Assembly: GCF_002001005.1 (NCBI RefSeq)
Contig: NZ_MUNX01000063.1
Span: 1-64,000, forward strand
Origin: Flavobacterium sp. A45
Lineage (GTDB): Bacteria; Bacteroidota; Bacteroidia; Flavobacteriales; Flavobacteriaceae
DNA: 64,000 nucleotides
Reading direction: 5' to 3'
Shown: positions 32,993 to 39,857 of the stretch, piece by piece
Layout: every line of letters starts with the position of its first letter
How positions within the stretch are numbered: position 1 is the stretch's first letter
The notes under the pieces: generated by a model
The model's database searches: none
Told to the model about the DNA's origin: nothing
What the model saw: only the letters and a program-made list of their open reading frames with translations
Translations under genes and position numbers: made by a program

Positions 32993-34231
32993 CTATTCAA
33001 GCTTTTTTCTAACAAACCAAATTCCGTCTAAATTGAGATTCAATGTTAATTTATGATAGTTCTCTTGAACTAATGAATTTGTTATTTGACCTTTTTGTCC
33101 ATAGGTATAAGAAATAAACAAAGCTGAAGATAGATGATCCAAGGGCAATGAAGCTCCAATTGAAAAACTTTTATCCTCAATTTTTTTATTGTCCACTTCT
33201 AAGTAACCTGTATCGTAATTAATGCCAGTAGCATATTTTATTCTGTCAAAATATATTCTAGATGTTTTTGCTTTTTGATAAGAAAAACCCAATGCAAACT
33301 TTTCTTGATTTGAAAAATCACCATACATATCGGATTGATTGGTAGCATCCCAAAAGTTTTTTTCATAGTCAAAAGTTACATTAAGTTTATTTTTAAAGGC
33401 TTTATTGAAACCTATACCAATCTCCAAAGGCAAATAAAAATCATCTGTATTTGATTTTTCATCTGTCTCCAAATTAGCGGTACCAGTTCCGTTTTCAACA
33501 GTTACAGACTGGGTTTTGGTTGCATTAACACGAGTTGGAGATTTTACATTTAACCCAAAAGTTAGCGATGGATTCATTTTAAATTGCGAAGCCAGAATAG
33601 GACGAATTCCGCTATAACTCACTTTTTTATCTATAGTCGTGACGGAGTTATTGATTGCATAAGTTCTTTCATCGGTAGTGTTCCCAAAAAGGACGGAAGC
33701 AGATAAACCCAATGATAATTTGTTAGTCAGTTTATAGGCATATGAAAAATCCAAATTATTCAATCCACCAGTACCTATTACGTCCAAATAATAATATTCA
33801 TTACCACTATCGATTACAGGAATTTTTAAGCCAGATATTTTAAAAGAAGAACTGGAATAAGGCATCATAGCGACACTAACTGCCGATTTAGTTGTAATCG
33901 GAAAGGCAAAAGCAAAATGGGAAAACTGAAAATTATTTCGATTTTCTTTTTTCAGATTATCTTCAAAAGAGGATTGAATGCCTTTACCTCCTATTTCAAA
34001 AAAGAAATTATTCTGCTGAATATTCACAAGTGAAGCTGCATTTTTATTATTAATAAAACTATCCGAAGGCAATGCTATACTAGCAGTACCAAGAGATGGA
34101 ATCAATCCAAAATTAGCCTCATACAAGCTTCCCAATCCATAAAGTGAATACGGTGAAGTCGCAATACTTTGAGAGAAGGCAATAAAAGAAGTAAAAAAAA
34201 CTAAAACCAAAAAAGGACTACTCTTTTTCAT
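32993..34231 (-). CDS. Outer-membrane beta-barrel protein paired with DUF4270
   Basis: Protein of 412 aa with signal peptide (to about residue 23, AFSQSIATSPYSLYGLGSLY follows). The opening and the alternating aromatic strands resemble FadL/PorV-type barrels of Bacteroidota. It starts at the base after the DUF4270 stop codon, so the two are co-translated. Substrate unknown; a surface complex with the DUF4270 lipoprotein is the simplest reading. Convergent with murI. Confidence 0.72.
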   Translation of the reverse strand: MKKSSPFLVLVFFTSFIAFSQSIATSPYSLYGLGSLYEANFGLIPSLGTASIALPSDSFINNKNAASLVNIQQNNFFFEIGGKGIQSSFEDNLKKENRNNFQFSHFAFAFPITTKSAVSVAMMPYSSSSFKISGLKIPVIDSGNEYYYLDVIGTGGLNNLDFSYAYKLTNKLSLGLSASVLFGNTTDERTYAINNSVTTIDKKVSYSGIRPILASQFKMNPSLTFGLNVKSPTRVNATKTQSVTVENGTGTANLETDEKSNTDDFYLPLEIGIGFNKAFKNKLNVTFDYEKNFWDATNQSDMYGDFSNQEKFALGFSYQKAKTSRIYFDRIKYATGINYDTGYLEVDNKKIEDKSFSIGASLPLDHLSSALFISYTYGQKGQITNSLVQENYHKLTLNLNLDGIWFVRKKLE

Positions 34232-35554
34232 TTAATACGTTATATAATAGATTTGTAATTTCATTTCGCTTTCCTTATTCGTCTGGTCACCCAATACAAC
34301 TCTATCTACAACTTTAGATAAAATAGGCAACGTAAAAACTAAACCACTCTCTGAATCCGACTCTTTCAGTATTTCTTTTTGCAAAAAAGCACCCAAGGAT
34401 AGTTGATAACTTACACTTTCATCAAATTCATCATTCTCATTATTCAGAGTGGCAACTAAACTCTCACCGCTGGAATCTGTGAGTGTTGTTTTTATCCGAT
34501 TCAATCTATCAACTACATAAACACTTAATTTTTCAGGTAATGGAAACATTTTCGAGTATGAATTCTTCGCGGGTTTCATTATTAACCTTGCATCGACTAT
34601 GGCACCTTTATCAGAGAGATATTTTAGTTGCTTTATATTCGGAAAATCCACTCGACACACTATTCCTGTACCTGATTGAATAAATCCTTTATTTCCGGTG
34701 TACGAACTGGATAGATTAATTTTAGATAATGGCAAATCTTGAATTAAAGTTCCTGCCCGATCTGAAGAAACAGAGTTAAACTGTTTAGCCACATCCGAAA
34801 TGGTAAATTCTTTTTCGTAAAAATCTTCAGTATCTCCTTTCCCTTTAGAATAATACAATCGAAGTACGCTTGACAAATTGAATCCAATCACACTACCGGA
34901 AGTATTGGAATCAGATTTCAATACAAACCCTTTTAAATAATCTGTAAACTCACTTGTTGTGGAGATTTCATTATTCTTGAACTTATTAAAAAGTTCCAAT
35001 CCAAATTCGTTATCCAATTTTATATTGATACTGTCTTTACCAATTGGCTTTGGCTTATATGTTATCGTTCCTAAACTCGCAGAATTATAATCTAAAGCAG
35101 AATTATTATAAAAACTATCATCATCTACATTGGGTTTGAACTTTTTGGTTACCCTATGTATGTTTAAAGTCTGAACTTTGGTAGTATCAGCATAATAATA
35201 ATCATCATACCTTAAAATCATGGCTATTGAATCAAAAACATATCCAGTAGCATCTGTATCCGAATTTTCACTGTAAAGATTGAATGAAGAGGTAGAAACC
35301 TGAAAATAACTATCCGCCTTTACTTTTCCAAAAAGAGGATCGTCATAATTCCCTACCAAAATTCTACTTTCGCTGGAAGTAACCAAGGAATCCAGCTTTA
35401 TGGTAGAAACATTAATTGTCACGGTGTCTATGGAGATAACTTTATTTTTTATCGCCAGATAATCAGCACCTACAATAAATTCACCAGCATCAACATCGGA
35501 ATCACAGGAGAACATCAATAAGCCAAAAAACATCAAAATCAAAAACTTGTACAT
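34232..35554 (-). CDS. DUF4270 family lipoprotein, probably surface exposed
   Basis: Lipoprotein of 440 aa. The signal sequence is followed by C17, and the CDSDVDAG stretch after it is acidic, as in the lipoprotein export signal that sends proteins to the cell surface in Flavobacterium and Capnocytophaga. The body is beta-rich with the family motif SRILVGNYDDPLFGKVKADS. I choose the ATG at 35554 because the longer reading puts 18 residues before the signal sequence. DUF4270 function is unknown. It is coupled to the barrel gene that follows. Confidence 0.82.
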   Translation of the reverse strand: MYKFLILMFFGLLMFSCDSDVDAGEFIVGADYLAIKNKVISIDTVTINVSTIKLDSLVTSSESRILVGNYDDPLFGKVKADSYFQVSTSSFNLYSENSDTDATGYVFDSIAMILRYDDYYYADTTKVQTLNIHRVTKKFKPNVDDDSFYNNSALDYNSASLGTITYKPKPIGKDSINIKLDNEFGLELFNKFKNNEISTTSEFTDYLKGFVLKSDSNTSGSVIGFNLSSVLRLYYSKGKGDTEDFYEKEFTISDVAKQFNSVSSDRAGTLIQDLPLSKINLSSSYTGNKGFIQSGTGIVCRVDFPNIKQLKYLSDKGAIVDARLIMKPAKNSYSKMFPLPEKLSVYVVDRLNRIKTTLTDSSGESLVATLNNENDEFDESVSYQLSLGAFLQKEILKESDSESGLVFTLPILSKVVDRVVLGDQTNKESEMKLQIYYITY

Positions 35555-35737
35555 ACCTAATTTTTTGAGCAAATATAGAAGCCCTCGTTGCTGCAGTCCT
35601 AACAACATATACTGTTCGGGTCTTTCAATCTATAAAAAGTGATAAACTGTCTATTACTCAGTATTTAGTTTCAAATCCAGGTTCAGCCATAATAATAGCC
35701 CGTTTGTCTATAGAATAAACCCATGCATATATATTCT

Positions 35738-35768
35738 TTTTTATTCATTGGCAACACAACTACTTTTG
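35738..35768 (+). promoter_or_regulatory. Promoter of the barrel-kelch-DUF4907-LytS-LytTR unit
   Basis: TTG (35738-35740) and TACTTTTG (35761-35768) fit the Bacteroidota consensus, 16 bases before the ATG at 35785. Confidence 0.55.
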
Positions 35769-35784
35769 AGCCAATAATTAAATA

Positions 35785-36648
35785 ATGAGAATAAACAACT
35801 TTATAAAGCTTTTGATTCTGATTCCAATATTTAGTGTTAGTGCACAAAAAGGATTCACAATTGATTTGAACATAAAAACAGAACCCATAGAAAATGGTTC
35901 CATAAAGCAAACTGGAATTGGGGTGTTATTTTTTAAAGACATTGGAACTAAAAACAAATTGACAAATACTTTTAAATACAAAAGCACAACAGTTACTGAT
36001 GAAATTGAAACCTATCTATTAAAAAATTATGTTACAAATTATAGCAGCACTCACTTTAATAGTTTTGAGAATAATTTTGAATTTTCTCATCAATTAACAG
36101 AAAAAACAAAGTTGAAAATAGCAATAGAACCAACAGCCAATTATGAAAGTAATTTTAAAATTTCGGATGTAATTGTTTTAGGAGGAATTGAGCTTAGTCA
36201 ATCTTTAAACAAAAATAACAGTATTGATTTGGGAATAAAAAGGATGACCATTTTTGGCAAACCCGAAATATTGCCAACATTCTCCTTCAATCATCAATTC
36301 AACAAAGAAGCATATTTAAAATTAGGATTCCCAAATTCGGAACTATCCTATTCCAATTCCATTCGGAATAAATTTAGCTTAAACAATGACTTTAGCGGAA
36401 GCAGTTACAATCTAAATTCCCCAATTATAACAGAGGATTTAAGCACTATGACGAAAGTAGGATTCTCACAAATGGAAACCACTTTACAATTTGAAAGAAA
36501 TATGGACACGTCTTGGTACATAAGCCTCAAAGGAGGATATTCATCGAACAAAGAATTTAAATTTTCTGATGAAAATAAAACCAAAGAAATGAATCGAACT
36601 TTAAAAAACGGAGGCATCTTTTCTGTTAGCATAAAATACAAACTTTAA
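35785..36648 (+). CDS. DUF6268-like outer-membrane beta-barrel protein
   Basis: Protein of 287 aa with a signal peptide ending SVSAQ. The rest alternates polar and aromatic residues in strand-length blocks, such as LTNTFKYKSTTV, TKLKIAIEPTANYES and the final IFSVSIKYKL, whose terminal aromatic-x-Leu is a barrel insertion signal. It resembles the DUF6268 barrel family; ligand unknown. First of five closely spaced genes, eight bases before the kelch gene. Confidence 0.68.
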   Translation: MRINNFIKLLILIPIFSVSAQKGFTIDLNIKTEPIENGSIKQTGIGVLFFKDIGTKNKLTNTFKYKSTTVTDEIETYLLKNYVTNYSSTHFNSFENNFEFSHQLTEKTKLKIAIEPTANYESNFKISDVIVLGGIELSQSLNKNNSIDLGIKRMTIFGKPEILPTFSFNHQFNKEAYLKLGFPNSELSYSNSIRNKFSLNNDFSGSSYNLNSPIITEDLSTMTKVGFSQMETTLQFERNMDTSWYISLKGGYSSNKEFKFSDENKTKEMNRTLKNGGIFSVSIKYKL

Positions 36649-36665
36649 TAAACACCATGCACATT

Positions 36666-37661
36666 ATGAAACATTTAAAAAAAGGAATATTTCTTAGCAC
36701 TTTACTTATCAGTCTAATTTCAATCAGTTGCAGCAATGATGATGAAGAAGACAAACTAGGAAACTGGATAAAAAAATCAGCATTTGATGGACCGGCACGA
36801 TCAAGTGCTACAAGCTTCGTGATAGGAACATATGTTTATGTTACAACTGGTTATACTGGAGATGAATATCTAAATGACTTATGGGCTTACAATTCTGATG
36901 GAGATTATTGGGAACAAAAATCCGATTTTATTGGTATTGCAAGAAGTTCGGGATCAGGATTTGAATTGAACGGAAAAGGATATGTAGGTCTGGGTTATGA
37001 CGGAACCAATAAATTAAAAGATTTCTTTGAATACAACCCAGATACCAATATTTGGGCACAAAAAGCAGATTTTGCTGGAACTGCCAGATATGGAGCCGTT
37101 GGTTTTCAAGTGGGAGGAAAAGCCTTTATGGGGACAGGATATGATGGTAATTATCTAAAAGATTTTTACCAATATAATGCAACGGATAATTCATGGACAC
37201 AAGTCAATGGTTTTAGCGGCAACAAAAGAAGAAATGCTACCGTTTTTGTAATTGACGACATTGCCTATTTAGGAACAGGAATAAACAGCGGGGTGAATCA
37301 AGCTGATTTTTGGGCATTTGATCCAAGCACTGATGTTTGGACAAGAAAAAGAGATTTGGATGATGATGAGAGTGATCATGATACCTACTCCATTAAAAGA
37401 GCCAATGCCACTAGTTTTTCAATTAATGGTTTAGGATATGTTACTTGTGGTGAAAGTGGAAATACCATTTGGGAATACAATCCAAAAACAGACATTTGGA
37501 AAGAAAAAACACCTCTGGAAGGCTCTGGAAGATCTGATGCAATAGGAGTAACAATTGGTGAACAGAGAGGCTTTGTCATGTTAGGAAAAGCTGGAACATC
37601 TTACTTTGATGATGTGTGGGAATTTAAACCAAACGAGGAACAAAATGACGACGACAACTAA
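36666..37661 (+). CDS. Kelch-repeat lipoprotein
   Basis: Protein of 331 aa. The signal sequence ends at C22, followed by SNDDEED, an acidic run like the flavobacterial surface-export signal. Six kelch-type blades follow, each with a Gly pair and a DlW.Y....W block (LNDLWAYNSDGDYWEQ, LKDFFEYNPDTNIWAQ, LKDFYQYNATDNSWTQ and so on), which predicts a six-bladed propeller on the cell surface. An alternative ATG nine bases upstream is possible. Its end overlaps the DUF4907 gene by 17 bases. Confidence 0.82.
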   Translation: MKHLKKGIFLSTLLISLISISCSNDDEEDKLGNWIKKSAFDGPARSSATSFVIGTYVYVTTGYTGDEYLNDLWAYNSDGDYWEQKSDFIGIARSSGSGFELNGKGYVGLGYDGTNKLKDFFEYNPDTNIWAQKADFAGTARYGAVGFQVGGKAFMGTGYDGNYLKDFYQYNATDNSWTQVNGFSGNKRRNATVFVIDDIAYLGTGINSGVNQADFWAFDPSTDVWTRKRDLDDDESDHDTYSIKRANATSFSINGLGYVTCGESGNTIWEYNPKTDIWKEKTPLEGSGRSDAIGVTIGEQRGFVMLGKAGTSYFDDVWEFKPNEEQNDDDN

Positions 37662-38010
37662 CCGCAAAAGCAAATTTTTCCGGAAGAAACTCCGGAAGAA
37701 TTTGTCTTCTGTTTTTAATTTATCCATAATTCTATTTGTAATAGCCCTCTTAATTTTTATTTTTTGTCAAAAGGAAAAAAGTTTAAACGTACAGACCCTA
37801 AAGATAAATCAAGGTTGGGGATACACTATTACAAACAATAATCGGGTAATTATAAAGCAAACAGTTATCCCCGTTATTAGTGAACAAAAAAGTTTCCAAA
37901 CCGAGAAAGAAGCTATGACTGTAGGGCAATTGGTAATAAAAAAATTGAACGCCAATAAATCGCCAACTATTACAAAAAATGAATTAATTTTATTAAAAAT
38001 AAGACTCTAG
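37645..38010 (+). CDS. DUF4907 family membrane protein
   Basis: Protein of 121 aa. A basic N-terminus (NRKSKFFRKKLRKN) leads into one membrane segment (LSIILFVIALLIFIF). A small extracytoplasmic domain follows with NQGWGYTITNNNRVIIKQTV, the DUF4907 signature. It overlaps the kelch gene by 17 bases, and its stop codon is followed directly by the kinase ATG, so it is embedded in the operon. A relay between the surface kelch protein and the kinase is an inference. Confidence 0.75.
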   Translation: MTTTTNRKSKFFRKKLRKNLSSVFNLSIILFVIALLIFIFCQKEKSLNVQTLKINQGWGYTITNNNRVIIKQTVIPVISEQKSFQTEKEAMTVGQLVIKKLNANKSPTITKNELILLKIRL

Positions 38011-39132
38011 ATGGATATTGTATCTATAAAAAATACCGACTCAAATAAAATACTTATTCACAGTATCATTTGGTGTTTTTTTATCAGTACTTCACTAATT
38101 CAATTCTATGAAAGTCCATCGCATATCAACACCGATTTTTATATACAATGGATAACTGGAATACTACTATTTTACCTCAACTATATCTATTTTGTTCCCC
38201 ATTTACTTTTGCAAAAAAAATACGGATATTACTTTGCCGTTCTACTTGTTCTTATAGTTATTTTCATGTACTGCAGGTTTCAGTTTTTCATGCCTGAATT
38301 TCGGGAAATGAAACCACCTAATGGCATGAATTATCCTAAAATATCTCTCACAGATAAAAATATAGAGCAGAGAATCCACAAAAGAGAACAACCTTTATTC
38401 TTCAAGTTTGTGCCTTCATTCTTCTATATTTTAATAGTTGCCATTAGCACTATAATCAAAATATTATCAGAGTTTTACAATGATCAACAAAACAAATTAA
38501 TTGCCGAAAGTCAAAGAGCTTCAACTGAGTTAAACTATTTGAGAAAGCAAACCAATCCCCATTTTTTATTCAATTCACTTAATAGTATCTACTCGCTGGC
38601 ACATAAAAAATCAGATTTAGTACCGGATGCCATTGTAACTTTGTCTGAAATGATGCGGTATATGCTTTATGAAACGGACAATAAAACCGTTTTATTAGAA
38701 AAAGAAATTGACTATATTAAAAACTATATTGAATTACAAAAATTAAGACTCAACAATATTGAAAACATTTATATAAATGTTCATGGCGACACCAAAAATA
38801 AGCTTATAGAACCCATGTTACTGATTTCATTTATTGAAAATGCATTCAAATATGGAACCGATTATAAAGGAACCGCTTATGTAAAAATCAAAATAACCAT
38901 CGAAGGAAATATTTTGGATTTTAGAGTAGAGAATAAGATAGAAAACAACAAAAAAGACCCTGTAAACTCAGGAATTGGGTTGTCTAATATTAAAAATAGA
39001 CTTAATTTGCTTTACGCAAATGCACATGAGTTAAATCTAACGGCTACAGATACAATGTATACGGTACATTTGATTCTACAATTGGACCAAATTCAACTAC
39101 AAGCAAATCCAGCTTTTATACCAACATCATAA
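38011..39132 (+). CDS. LytS-type sensor histidine kinase
   Basis: Membrane kinase of 373 aa. Three to four hydrophobic segments span residues about 10-155. The His_kinase domain then has the phospho-acceptor H184 in QTNPHFLFNSLNSIYSLA, and the ATPase domain carries LISFIENAFKYG and GIGLSNIKNRLNLLY. There is no large sensory domain outside the membrane, so input may come from a partner protein. Partner regulator encoded 11 bases downstream. Confidence 0.92.
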   Translation: MDIVSIKNTDSNKILIHSIIWCFFISTSLIQFYESPSHINTDFYIQWITGILLFYLNYIYFVPHLLLQKKYGYYFAVLLVLIVIFMYCRFQFFMPEFREMKPPNGMNYPKISLTDKNIEQRIHKREQPLFFKFVPSFFYILIVAISTIIKILSEFYNDQQNKLIAESQRASTELNYLRKQTNPHFLFNSLNSIYSLAHKKSDLVPDAIVTLSEMMRYMLYETDNKTVLLEKEIDYIKNYIELQKLRLNNIENIYINVHGDTKNKLIEPMLLISFIENAFKYGTDYKGTAYVKIKITIEGNILDFRVENKIENNKKDPVNSGIGLSNIKNRLNLLYANAHELNLTATDTMYTVHLILQLDQIQLQANPAFIPTS

Positions 39133-39143
39133 ATTAAGAACAG

Positions 39144-39857
39144 ATGAAATGTGTCATTATAGACGACGAACCATTAGCGGTAGATTTATTGGTAGAATTT
39201 GTCGGAAGAGTCGATTCGCTCGAACTGGTTACCACATTTACGAATGCTATTGATGCCATATCGATAATTAACCAATCCCAGATTGACTTGATTTTTTTGG
39301 ACATCGAAATGCCTCATTTTTCAGGAATTGATTTCATCAATGCCATTGAAAAAAAACCGTTAATCATTTTCACAACTGCTTATTCAAATTATGCTGTCGA
39401 AGGTTTTAATCTTGGTGCAGTGGATTATTTGGTAAAACCCATTCCTTTTAACCGTTTTCTAAAATCTGTTTTAAGAGCACAACAAATCTTTGCGCCAAAA
39501 AACCTACCAATAGAAACTCCAGCAACAAATACGCCCGAAATTGAACATGATTTTATGTTTGTCCGAGCAGAATATGAAAATGTAAAAATCAATTTTGCAG
39601 ATATTTTATTTATCGAAGGATTGAAAGATTATGTCAAAATACACACTACCGACAATAAATACACACTAACCTTAATTAGTTTAATAAAACTGGAAAACCT
39701 ATTGTCTTCCAAAGGCTTTGCTAGAATTCATCGTTCGTACATAATCAATATCAAACATGTGAAATCCATCCAAAAAAATAAAGTTTTAATGGCTGAAAAA
39801 AGAATTCCAATCAGCGAAAGCTATAAAACTTCATTCTTTGAAAAAATAAACATTTGA
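39144..39857 (+). CDS. LytTR family response regulator
   Basis: Protein of 237 aa. The receiver domain has acidic residues D7 and D8, phospho-acceptor D53 in IFLDIEMPHFSG and the conserved Lys in YLVKPI. The C-terminal LytTR DNA-binding domain includes DILFIEGLKDYVKIH and FARIHRSYIINIKHVKSI. It pairs with the LytS kinase just upstream and ends the five-gene unit. The target genes are not known; autoregulation of this operon would be typical. Confidence 0.93.
   Translation: MKCVIIDDEPLAVDLLVEFVGRVDSLELVTTFTNAIDAISIINQSQIDLIFLDIEMPHFSGIDFINAIEKKPLIIFTTAYSNYAVEGFNLGAVDYLVKPIPFNRFLKSVLRAQQIFAPKNLPIETPATNTPEIEHDFMFVRAEYENVKINFADILFIEGLKDYVKIHTTDNKYTLTLISLIKLENLLSSKGFARIHRSYIINIKHVKSIQKNKVLMAEKRIPISESYKTSFFEKINI

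Follow-up and report, generated by a model that had tools for sequence, protein, structure and literature searches.

What kind of system is encoded by five same-strand genes at positions 35,738 to 39,857 of a 64,000-nucleotide stretch of Flavobacterium sp. A45 DNA (contig NZ_MUNX01000063.1; the whole stretch is called the window here), whose products are an outer-membrane barrel, a kelch propeller lipoprotein, a DUF4907 protein, a LytS-type histidine kinase and a LytTR response regulator? The initial annotation, made from the sequence alone, took the five genes as one undescribed unit in which the barrel and the kelch lipoprotein detect a surface ligand or contact and DUF4907 relays it to the kinase and regulator. 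We find that they are only part of a conserved unit of seven divergent genes, and that the two genes missed (32993-35608) encode BamG2 and BamH2, paralogues of the BamG and BamH subunits of the Bacteroidota beta-barrel assembly machinery (BAM). Their presence suggests a role in building outer-membrane proteins and not in ligand sensing alone, and we give about an even chance to the reading that the locus is an inducible alternative BAM module, made up of BamG2, BamH2 and the kelch lipoprotein and switched by its own LytS/LytTR pair.

A conserved locus of seven divergent genes

All five genes of the original stretch lie on the forward strand, where they had been placed, with gaps of 8 or 17, -17, 0 and 11 bases, and Pfam bears out each product type: a DUF6268 outer-membrane barrel (35785-36648; PF19783, E 1.5e-10), a protein with kelch repeats (36666-37661, or from 36657), DUF4907 (37645-38010; PF16250, E 1.7e-24, 85.8 bits against a cut-off of 25), a His_kinase protein (38011-39132; E 4.8e-25) and a Response_reg plus LytTR protein (39144-39857). 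A search for DUF4907 was positive in 39 of 249 genomes of the family and in 32 of 392 of the phylum, two overlapping sets that together hold 66 distinct positive genomes, the window's own counted; 65 regions of 9.4 to 12.2 kb and the window itself were then compared. A kelch relative is present in the DUF4907 locus of all 66 genomes, directly adjoining DUF4907 in 65 and separated from it by one gene in L063, with the order of the two reversed in L117 and L118. As the loci were picked by DUF4907, the figure of 66/66 is conditional on it, and five DUF4907-negative loci described below serve as an independent check. Since kelch stands next to DUF4907 in nearly all of these genomes, the linkage is far beyond chance and the unit is conserved. 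The LytS-type kinase is adjacent in 54 of the 66 loci and the regulator in 55, so that the predicted association with a two-component pair extends over many genomes rather than a few.

Clustering of all neighbours in the 66 loci brought out two more near-universal families, BamH2 in 62 and BamG2 in 60, corresponding to window genes 34232-35608 and 32993-34231, which are divergent from the five genes and lie outside 35738-39857. The BamH2 gene is divergent from the kelch operon in 59 loci and co-directional with it in L106, L113 and L119. The DUF6268 barrel, which had been cast as half of the sensing pair, is optional, being found ahead of kelch in only 27 of 66 loci. A scan of named genomes with BamG2, from which 80 of 385 relatives were kept (77 titled Flavobacterium), gave 74 loci with all seven genes in order, 5 lacking only the DUF6268 barrel and 1 at a contig end.

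Two further genes: paralogues of BamG and BamH

The outermost reverse-strand gene (bamG2, 32993-34231) encodes a FadL-family barrel that matches BamG of Flavobacterium johnsoniae (chain 9n2d_B; phmmer 6.9e-26, 94.6 bits) across the full barrel, query residues 12-411 aligning to chain residues 11-408. It also matches the outer-membrane chains 9hiv_F and 9hjm_F, the latter from an entry titled as the Porphyromonas gingivalis BAM complex, and a profile of 23 BamG2 relatives reaches 9n2d_B at 1e-71. A second and closer BamG is encoded elsewhere in the genome (G000:C158, 441 bits to 9n2d_B), so the window gene is a paralogue and not the canonical copy. In a tree of 13 canonical BamGs, one unassigned sequence (L231) and 24 kelch-linked ones (22 of the 60, plus L127 and L130), the kelch-linked and canonical groups are split by one branch with support of 87/82. 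The two ends of the protein are kept: a PYS..G.G-type motif near the N-terminus occurs in 59 of 60 BamG2s and is visible, in the same or variant form, in the canonical rows of the tree alignment, and a WF..RK-like C-terminus, defined by a loose pattern, occurs in 54 of 60. As the end regions of BamG touch BamA and BamD (PMC12611786; here and below, the cited papers are drawn on in excerpt), retention of these motifs makes docking of BamG2 on BamA plausible.

BamH2 (34232-35608, reverse strand, with a likely start at 35554 and a Met19 that is nearly invariant among relatives) is a surface-type lipoprotein of Pfam family DUF4270 (8.2e-32), the same family as canonical BamH. Its AlphaFold model (predicted local distance difference test, pLDDT, 85) has as its top three fold matches the solved BamHs 9n2d_C, 9his_G and 9hjm_G, with E-values of 1.1e-21 for F. 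johnsoniae, 9.3e-19 for Bacteroides thetaiotaomicron and 9.8e-19 for P. gingivalis, and the next match at 3e-4; a profile of the sequence finds no PDB chain, even at E 10. A lipobox-like Cys is present in 61 of 62 relatives, and 52 of these 61 have at least two acidic residues among the next seven. The genome's canonical BamH (G000:C22, 538 residues, 415 bits to 9n2d_C) exceeds BamH2 by 80-98 residues, depending on which BamH2 start is used. BamG2 and BamH2 are thus paralogues of BamG and BamH. Genomic context also differs: canonical bamG lies by coaX-like and lptC-like genes and canonical bamH by panC-like and glmS-like genes (all named by eye), whereas bamG2 adjoins bamH2.

The paralogues themselves are already known. 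Silale et al. (2025) name Bt1785 as BamG2 and Bt1786 as BamH2, in a putative operon, and note that BamH2 falls short of BamH by about 100 residues (PMC12578637); Liu et al. (2025) describe deletable homologues of the two in F. johnsoniae and consider BamH2 unlikely to bind BamM (PMC12611786); and a published table lists BT1785-86 as hypothetical, DUF4270 (PMC10434189). By these descriptions the published pairs share with the window an adjacent paralogue pair, a shorter BamH2 and DUF4270. They differ in that the partners found here go unmentioned: the texts of the three papers contain neither kelch nor LytTR, and those of the first two neither two-component nor response regulator. In the literature searched (preprints and most subscription papers fall outside it), there was no paper on DUF4907, nothing on kelch with LytTR and a Bacteroidetes histidine kinase, nothing on a kelch lipoprotein and the Flavobacterium outer membrane, and for BamG with BamH in Bacteroidota only PMC12578637 and PMC12611786. 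No account of these paralogues being broadly coupled with a kelch lipoprotein, DUF4907 and LytS/LytTR was found in that literature.

This coupling also appears outside the DUF4907 selection. In the family set (n = 249), two DUF4270 matches occur in 32 of 39 DUF4907-positive genomes versus 3 of 210 DUF4907-negative ones (Fisher 4e-30; the pairing of per-genome results relies on genome labels), and the seven positive genomes with a single match all carry a BamH2 relative in the locus. Within the phylum set, members of the window's own genus have two matches in 15/15 DUF4907-positive genomes and one in 11/11 DUF4907-negative genomes. A second DUF4270 gene without a PF16250 match is found in G045, G103 and G146 (family set) and in G572 and G584 (phylum set), and in all five of these loci a kelch relative adjoins BamH2. 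Kelch is therefore the steadiest partner of BamH2, and a locus can lack DUF4907. In G045, G103 and G146 kelch is followed by the kinase pair, a pair of that kind lies a few kb away in G584, and G572 has BamG2. Kelch searches of 19 of the 26 genus genomes (8 with the module, 11 without) gave a match in 8/8 and, as a partial match, in 1/11, respectively. Two further genomes with two DUF4270 matches each, G299 and G403, were counted as carrying canonical genes with split matches and not BamH2, as the stretch in each holds one 397-aa DUF4270-region gene, then a BamG relative, and no kelch. In these stretches (L243:5337-7819 and L244:5353-7835, from another family) the BamG relative comes immediately after the DUF4270-region gene, and a BamH-BamG gene pair may be an old arrangement.

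The kelch lipoprotein, DUF4907 and optional members

The kelch protein contains six repeats, counted by eye, and its lipobox Cys is followed by SNDDEED, the acidic export-type lipoprotein signal that had been noted from the sequence. By sequence it has no BAM chain among the PDB matches listed (60 of 78). It shares kelch repeats with NanM and the kelch mutarotases, but a NanM or mutarotase function was rejected, the scores lying below curated cut-offs (Pfam NANM 38.7 bits against 45; NCBIfam 44.8 against 243, and lower). A possible parallel within BAM is BamI. Known Bacteroidota complexes combine BamG-BamH with BamM (F. johnsoniae) or with BamI-K (B. thetaiotaomicron, P. gingivalis), and have in common with the window a FadL-family BamG with a threaded N-terminal tail, a DUF4270 surface lipoprotein BamH and, in the latter two species, a propeller lipoprotein next to BamH, BamI, which is six-bladed and contacts BamH (PMC12578637). 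BamI and kelch are compared here as propeller lipoproteins, the former next to BamH and the latter encoded beside BamH2, and not as homologues. The window differs from these complexes in the adjacency of bamG2 and bamH2, the shorter BamH2, the kelch type of propeller and the linked two-component pair. In an alternative module, BamG2 would dock beside BamA, as BamG does, the surface lipoprotein BamH2 would sit on BamG2, and the kelch propeller would join BamH2 extracellularly as a BAM subunit, at a place like that of BamI beside BamH in B. thetaiotaomicron.

DUF4907 combines a membrane anchor with a small beta3-alpha domain. Its predicted structure (mean pLDDT 89) begins with one long helix, after which come three strands and two helices, in agreement with the single membrane helix and small outer domain first described, and a fold search against the PDB gave no match at E 0.001 (best E 0.69). 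A lipobox-like Cys is present in 21 of 66 relatives and absent in the other 45, the window's included. DUF4907 might couple envelope state to the kinase, a role made uncertain by its absence from three loci that keep the kinase pair. At 37670-37705, immediately within the start of the DUF4907 gene, there is a 15-pair hairpin with a T-rich tail, which may have arisen by chance or could modulate expression of the genes after it.

In other systems, kelch propellers and FadL barrels are known to bind ligands, and the locus might accordingly encode a surface sensor in which BamG2, BamH2 and kelch form a stand-alone receptor, no longer working with BamA, that passes a ligand or contact through DUF4907 to the kinase. 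The kinase without a Pfam sensor domain would suit such a scheme, as would the variable lipobox of DUF4907 and the constancy of kelch with DUF4907 in all 66 loci, including four without BamH2. However, BamG2 keeps canonical-BamG-like motifs at its ends, the parts reported to touch BamA and BamD (PMC12611786). The five DUF4907-negative loci, which keep BamH2 and kelch and of which three still have the kinase pair after kelch and one has it nearby, mean that DUF4907 is not an obligatory relay, and the surface proteins persist where no kinase adjoins. We consider a stand-alone sensor unlikely. One locus, L111 (2341-5914), has three tandem kelch genes before DUF4907 and neither BamG2 nor BamH2, and presents a second context for the kelch-DUF4907 pair.

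Optional genes suggest another possibility, that BamG2, BamH2 and kelch assemble or export a single client encoded in the same locus and governed by the same regulator. One candidate is the DUF6268 barrel, which shares the operon in 27/66 loci; iterating its profile added none, and it was set aside as a core partner. The other is a lipoprotein that carries Dioxygenase_C (PF00775, from scans of two copies; e.g. L095:7386-8099 and L063:6434-7138), relatives of which occur in 40 of the 80 named loci. This gene lies between kinase and regulator in the genus loci L095, L101, L103, L104 and L105 and between kelch and DUF4907 in L063, and its product might be a client, or might hint at the signal. 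Of 51 loci outside the genus, however, 13 carry the barrel and 2 the dioxygenase-like gene, against a near-universal presence of BamH2 and kelch. A module dedicated to one such client therefore seems to us distinctly improbable.

The two-component pair, the intergenic repeat and proposed induction

The kinase and regulator keep their phospho-accepting His and Asp. His184 and Asn277 of the kinase are each present in 54/54 aligned relatives and Asp53 of the regulator in 54/55, and Pfam finds no sensor domain in the kinase, consistent with the lack of a large one noted at the outset. In the 19 genus genomes, kinases 66-100% identical to the window's occur only at the module, in 7 of the 8 genomes that carry it; the locus kinase of the eighth (G526) scores 165 bits, and matches in the 11 genomes without the module reach at most 172 bits. 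In these genomes the close kinases are thus not found elsewhere among unrelated neighbours, the outcome that the initial annotation had named as counting against its unit. A second kinase-regulator pair of the same type lies a few kb from the module in L071, L081, L082, L088 and L127. The usual pair is missing after DUF4907 in L109 and L113, and another LytS-type kinase and regulator are found beyond bamG2 in the former (L109:1-1701) and before kelch in the latter (L113:7692-9555). Genes that follow DUF4907 looked unrelated in two other kinase-less loci (a peptidase M1 in L098; GTPase Obg and a peptidase S46 in L116) and, by eye only, in the remainder.

Between the divergent halves lie two opposed elements of the type TAnnTTTG, which we take to be the Bacteroidetes -7 consensus. 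One (35761-35768, forward) precedes the five-gene operon and is found in 78 of 79 named loci, with 70 occurrences 25-26 nt before the first start codon in the 79 intergenic regions; the other (35570-35577, reverse) would serve bamH2 and is found in 66 of 79, with 57 occurrences 216-217 nt before the start of the other operon. A single promoter match ahead of the five genes had been reported; a generic sigma-70 scan shows no promoter excess (15 versus 22.6 in shuffles). The window also contains a direct repeat, CTAT-N17-CTAT (35630-35654, forward), between the two elements. Its general form, a CTAY pair with a 21-bp period, is present in 13 of 15 genus regions (shuffles expect 0.31 for 14 of them), and is lacking in the genus locus L121 (G526). 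Of the 79 named loci, 76 have the pair (shuffles 2.04), which in most cases lies 156-157 nt upstream of the first ATG. Genus loci share ancestry, and the counts of 13/15 and 76/79 must be read as not independent.

When no motif is specified, 13 of 38 non-genus regions with a kinase contain exact 6-mers that recur at 21 bp (shuffles 2.0, for 39 regions), and 21 tops all periods from 12 to 35, the next reaching 5 regions; the corresponding comparison with control gaps from the same loci is 15/39 against 7/111. LytTR regulators bind two repeats of 9-11 nt separated by spacers of 11-13 nt, with no common sequence (PMC4847170), the spacer being mostly 12 bp (PMC6193735). The conserved repeat fits this geometry and is a candidate site for the regulator. 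In its His_kinase and Response_reg-LytTR architecture and its direct repeats of about 21-bp period the pair resembles other LytS/LytTR systems; it differs from them in its linkage to outer-membrane assembly paralogues and in the location of the repeat between divergent promoters. Two other features were observed nearby. The element TTTGTCTAT (35703-35711) lies between the candidate regulator site and the operon -7 element and was rejected as a consistent feature, TTT[GA]GTCTAY being present in only 38 of 79 named loci. A T-rich tract occurs near the operon -7 element in 78 of 79.

An inducible module would work as follows. The kinase would sense envelope state, possibly by way of DUF4907, and the LytTR regulator would bind the 21-bp-period repeat between the divergent promoters and switch on both halves, so that BamG2, BamH2 and the kelch lipoprotein would appear together. 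Several observations weigh against this reading. Four of the 66 loci (L111, L114, L117, L118) have kelch and DUF4907 without BamH2, 12 of 66 lack an adjacent kinase, as does G572, and G584 has BamH2 and kelch with no BamG2 found beside them. Outside the genus the CTAY pair is limited to 8 of 44 loci (shuffles 0.36 for 45); L116 among these is an artefact of tandem heptamers, and an adjacent kinase is missing from L090, L098 and L116. Of six loci with no kinase adjoining, four likewise have the 21-bp repeat (L098, L108, L109 and the artefactual L116), so the repeat is not tied to the kinase-regulator pair. In B. thetaiotaomicron, BamG2 and BamH2 were undetected by proteomics, even in the absence of bamH, a bamH bamH2 double deletion was like the bamH deletion, and Silale et al. 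argue against an alternative complex rescuing the bamH mutant (PMC12578637). That no rescue was observed is compatible with a module that is specialised or was not induced, but is direct evidence against a simple backup.

The same experiments could be taken to mean that bamG2 and bamH2 are silent, redundant leftovers whose neighbours are conserved by inertia. F. johnsoniae BamG2 and BamH2 show no appreciable expression in rich medium (PMC12611786), and the double deletion adds no phenotype (PMC12578637). Synteny over several families, a fixed promoter architecture and intact catalytic residues argue the other way, and we regard a silent duplicate as very improbable.

If the locus is indeed an inducible BAM module, it may amount to a second, signal-dependent assembly machine, in which BamA is re-equipped with BamG2, BamH2 and kelch in place of the housekeeping canopy on a LytS/LytTR cue, altering which surface complexes are built. 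We put this fuller picture forward tentatively, as somewhat short of an even chance. We know of no described BAM complex in which a dedicated two-component system exchanges the accessory subunits. Possession of its own sensor and switch could explain the apparent laboratory silence of a second version of the assembly machinery. When BamG2 and BamH2 were named, in 2025, as paralogues of BAM core subunits, no role was assigned to them in the excerpts of those papers; the linkage described here supplies a candidate third component (the kelch lipoprotein), a candidate regulator and a candidate site, and with them a direct way to switch the genes on and find out what they build. Were the reading correct, outer-membrane assembly outside the cell would prove open to remodelling in response to a signal.

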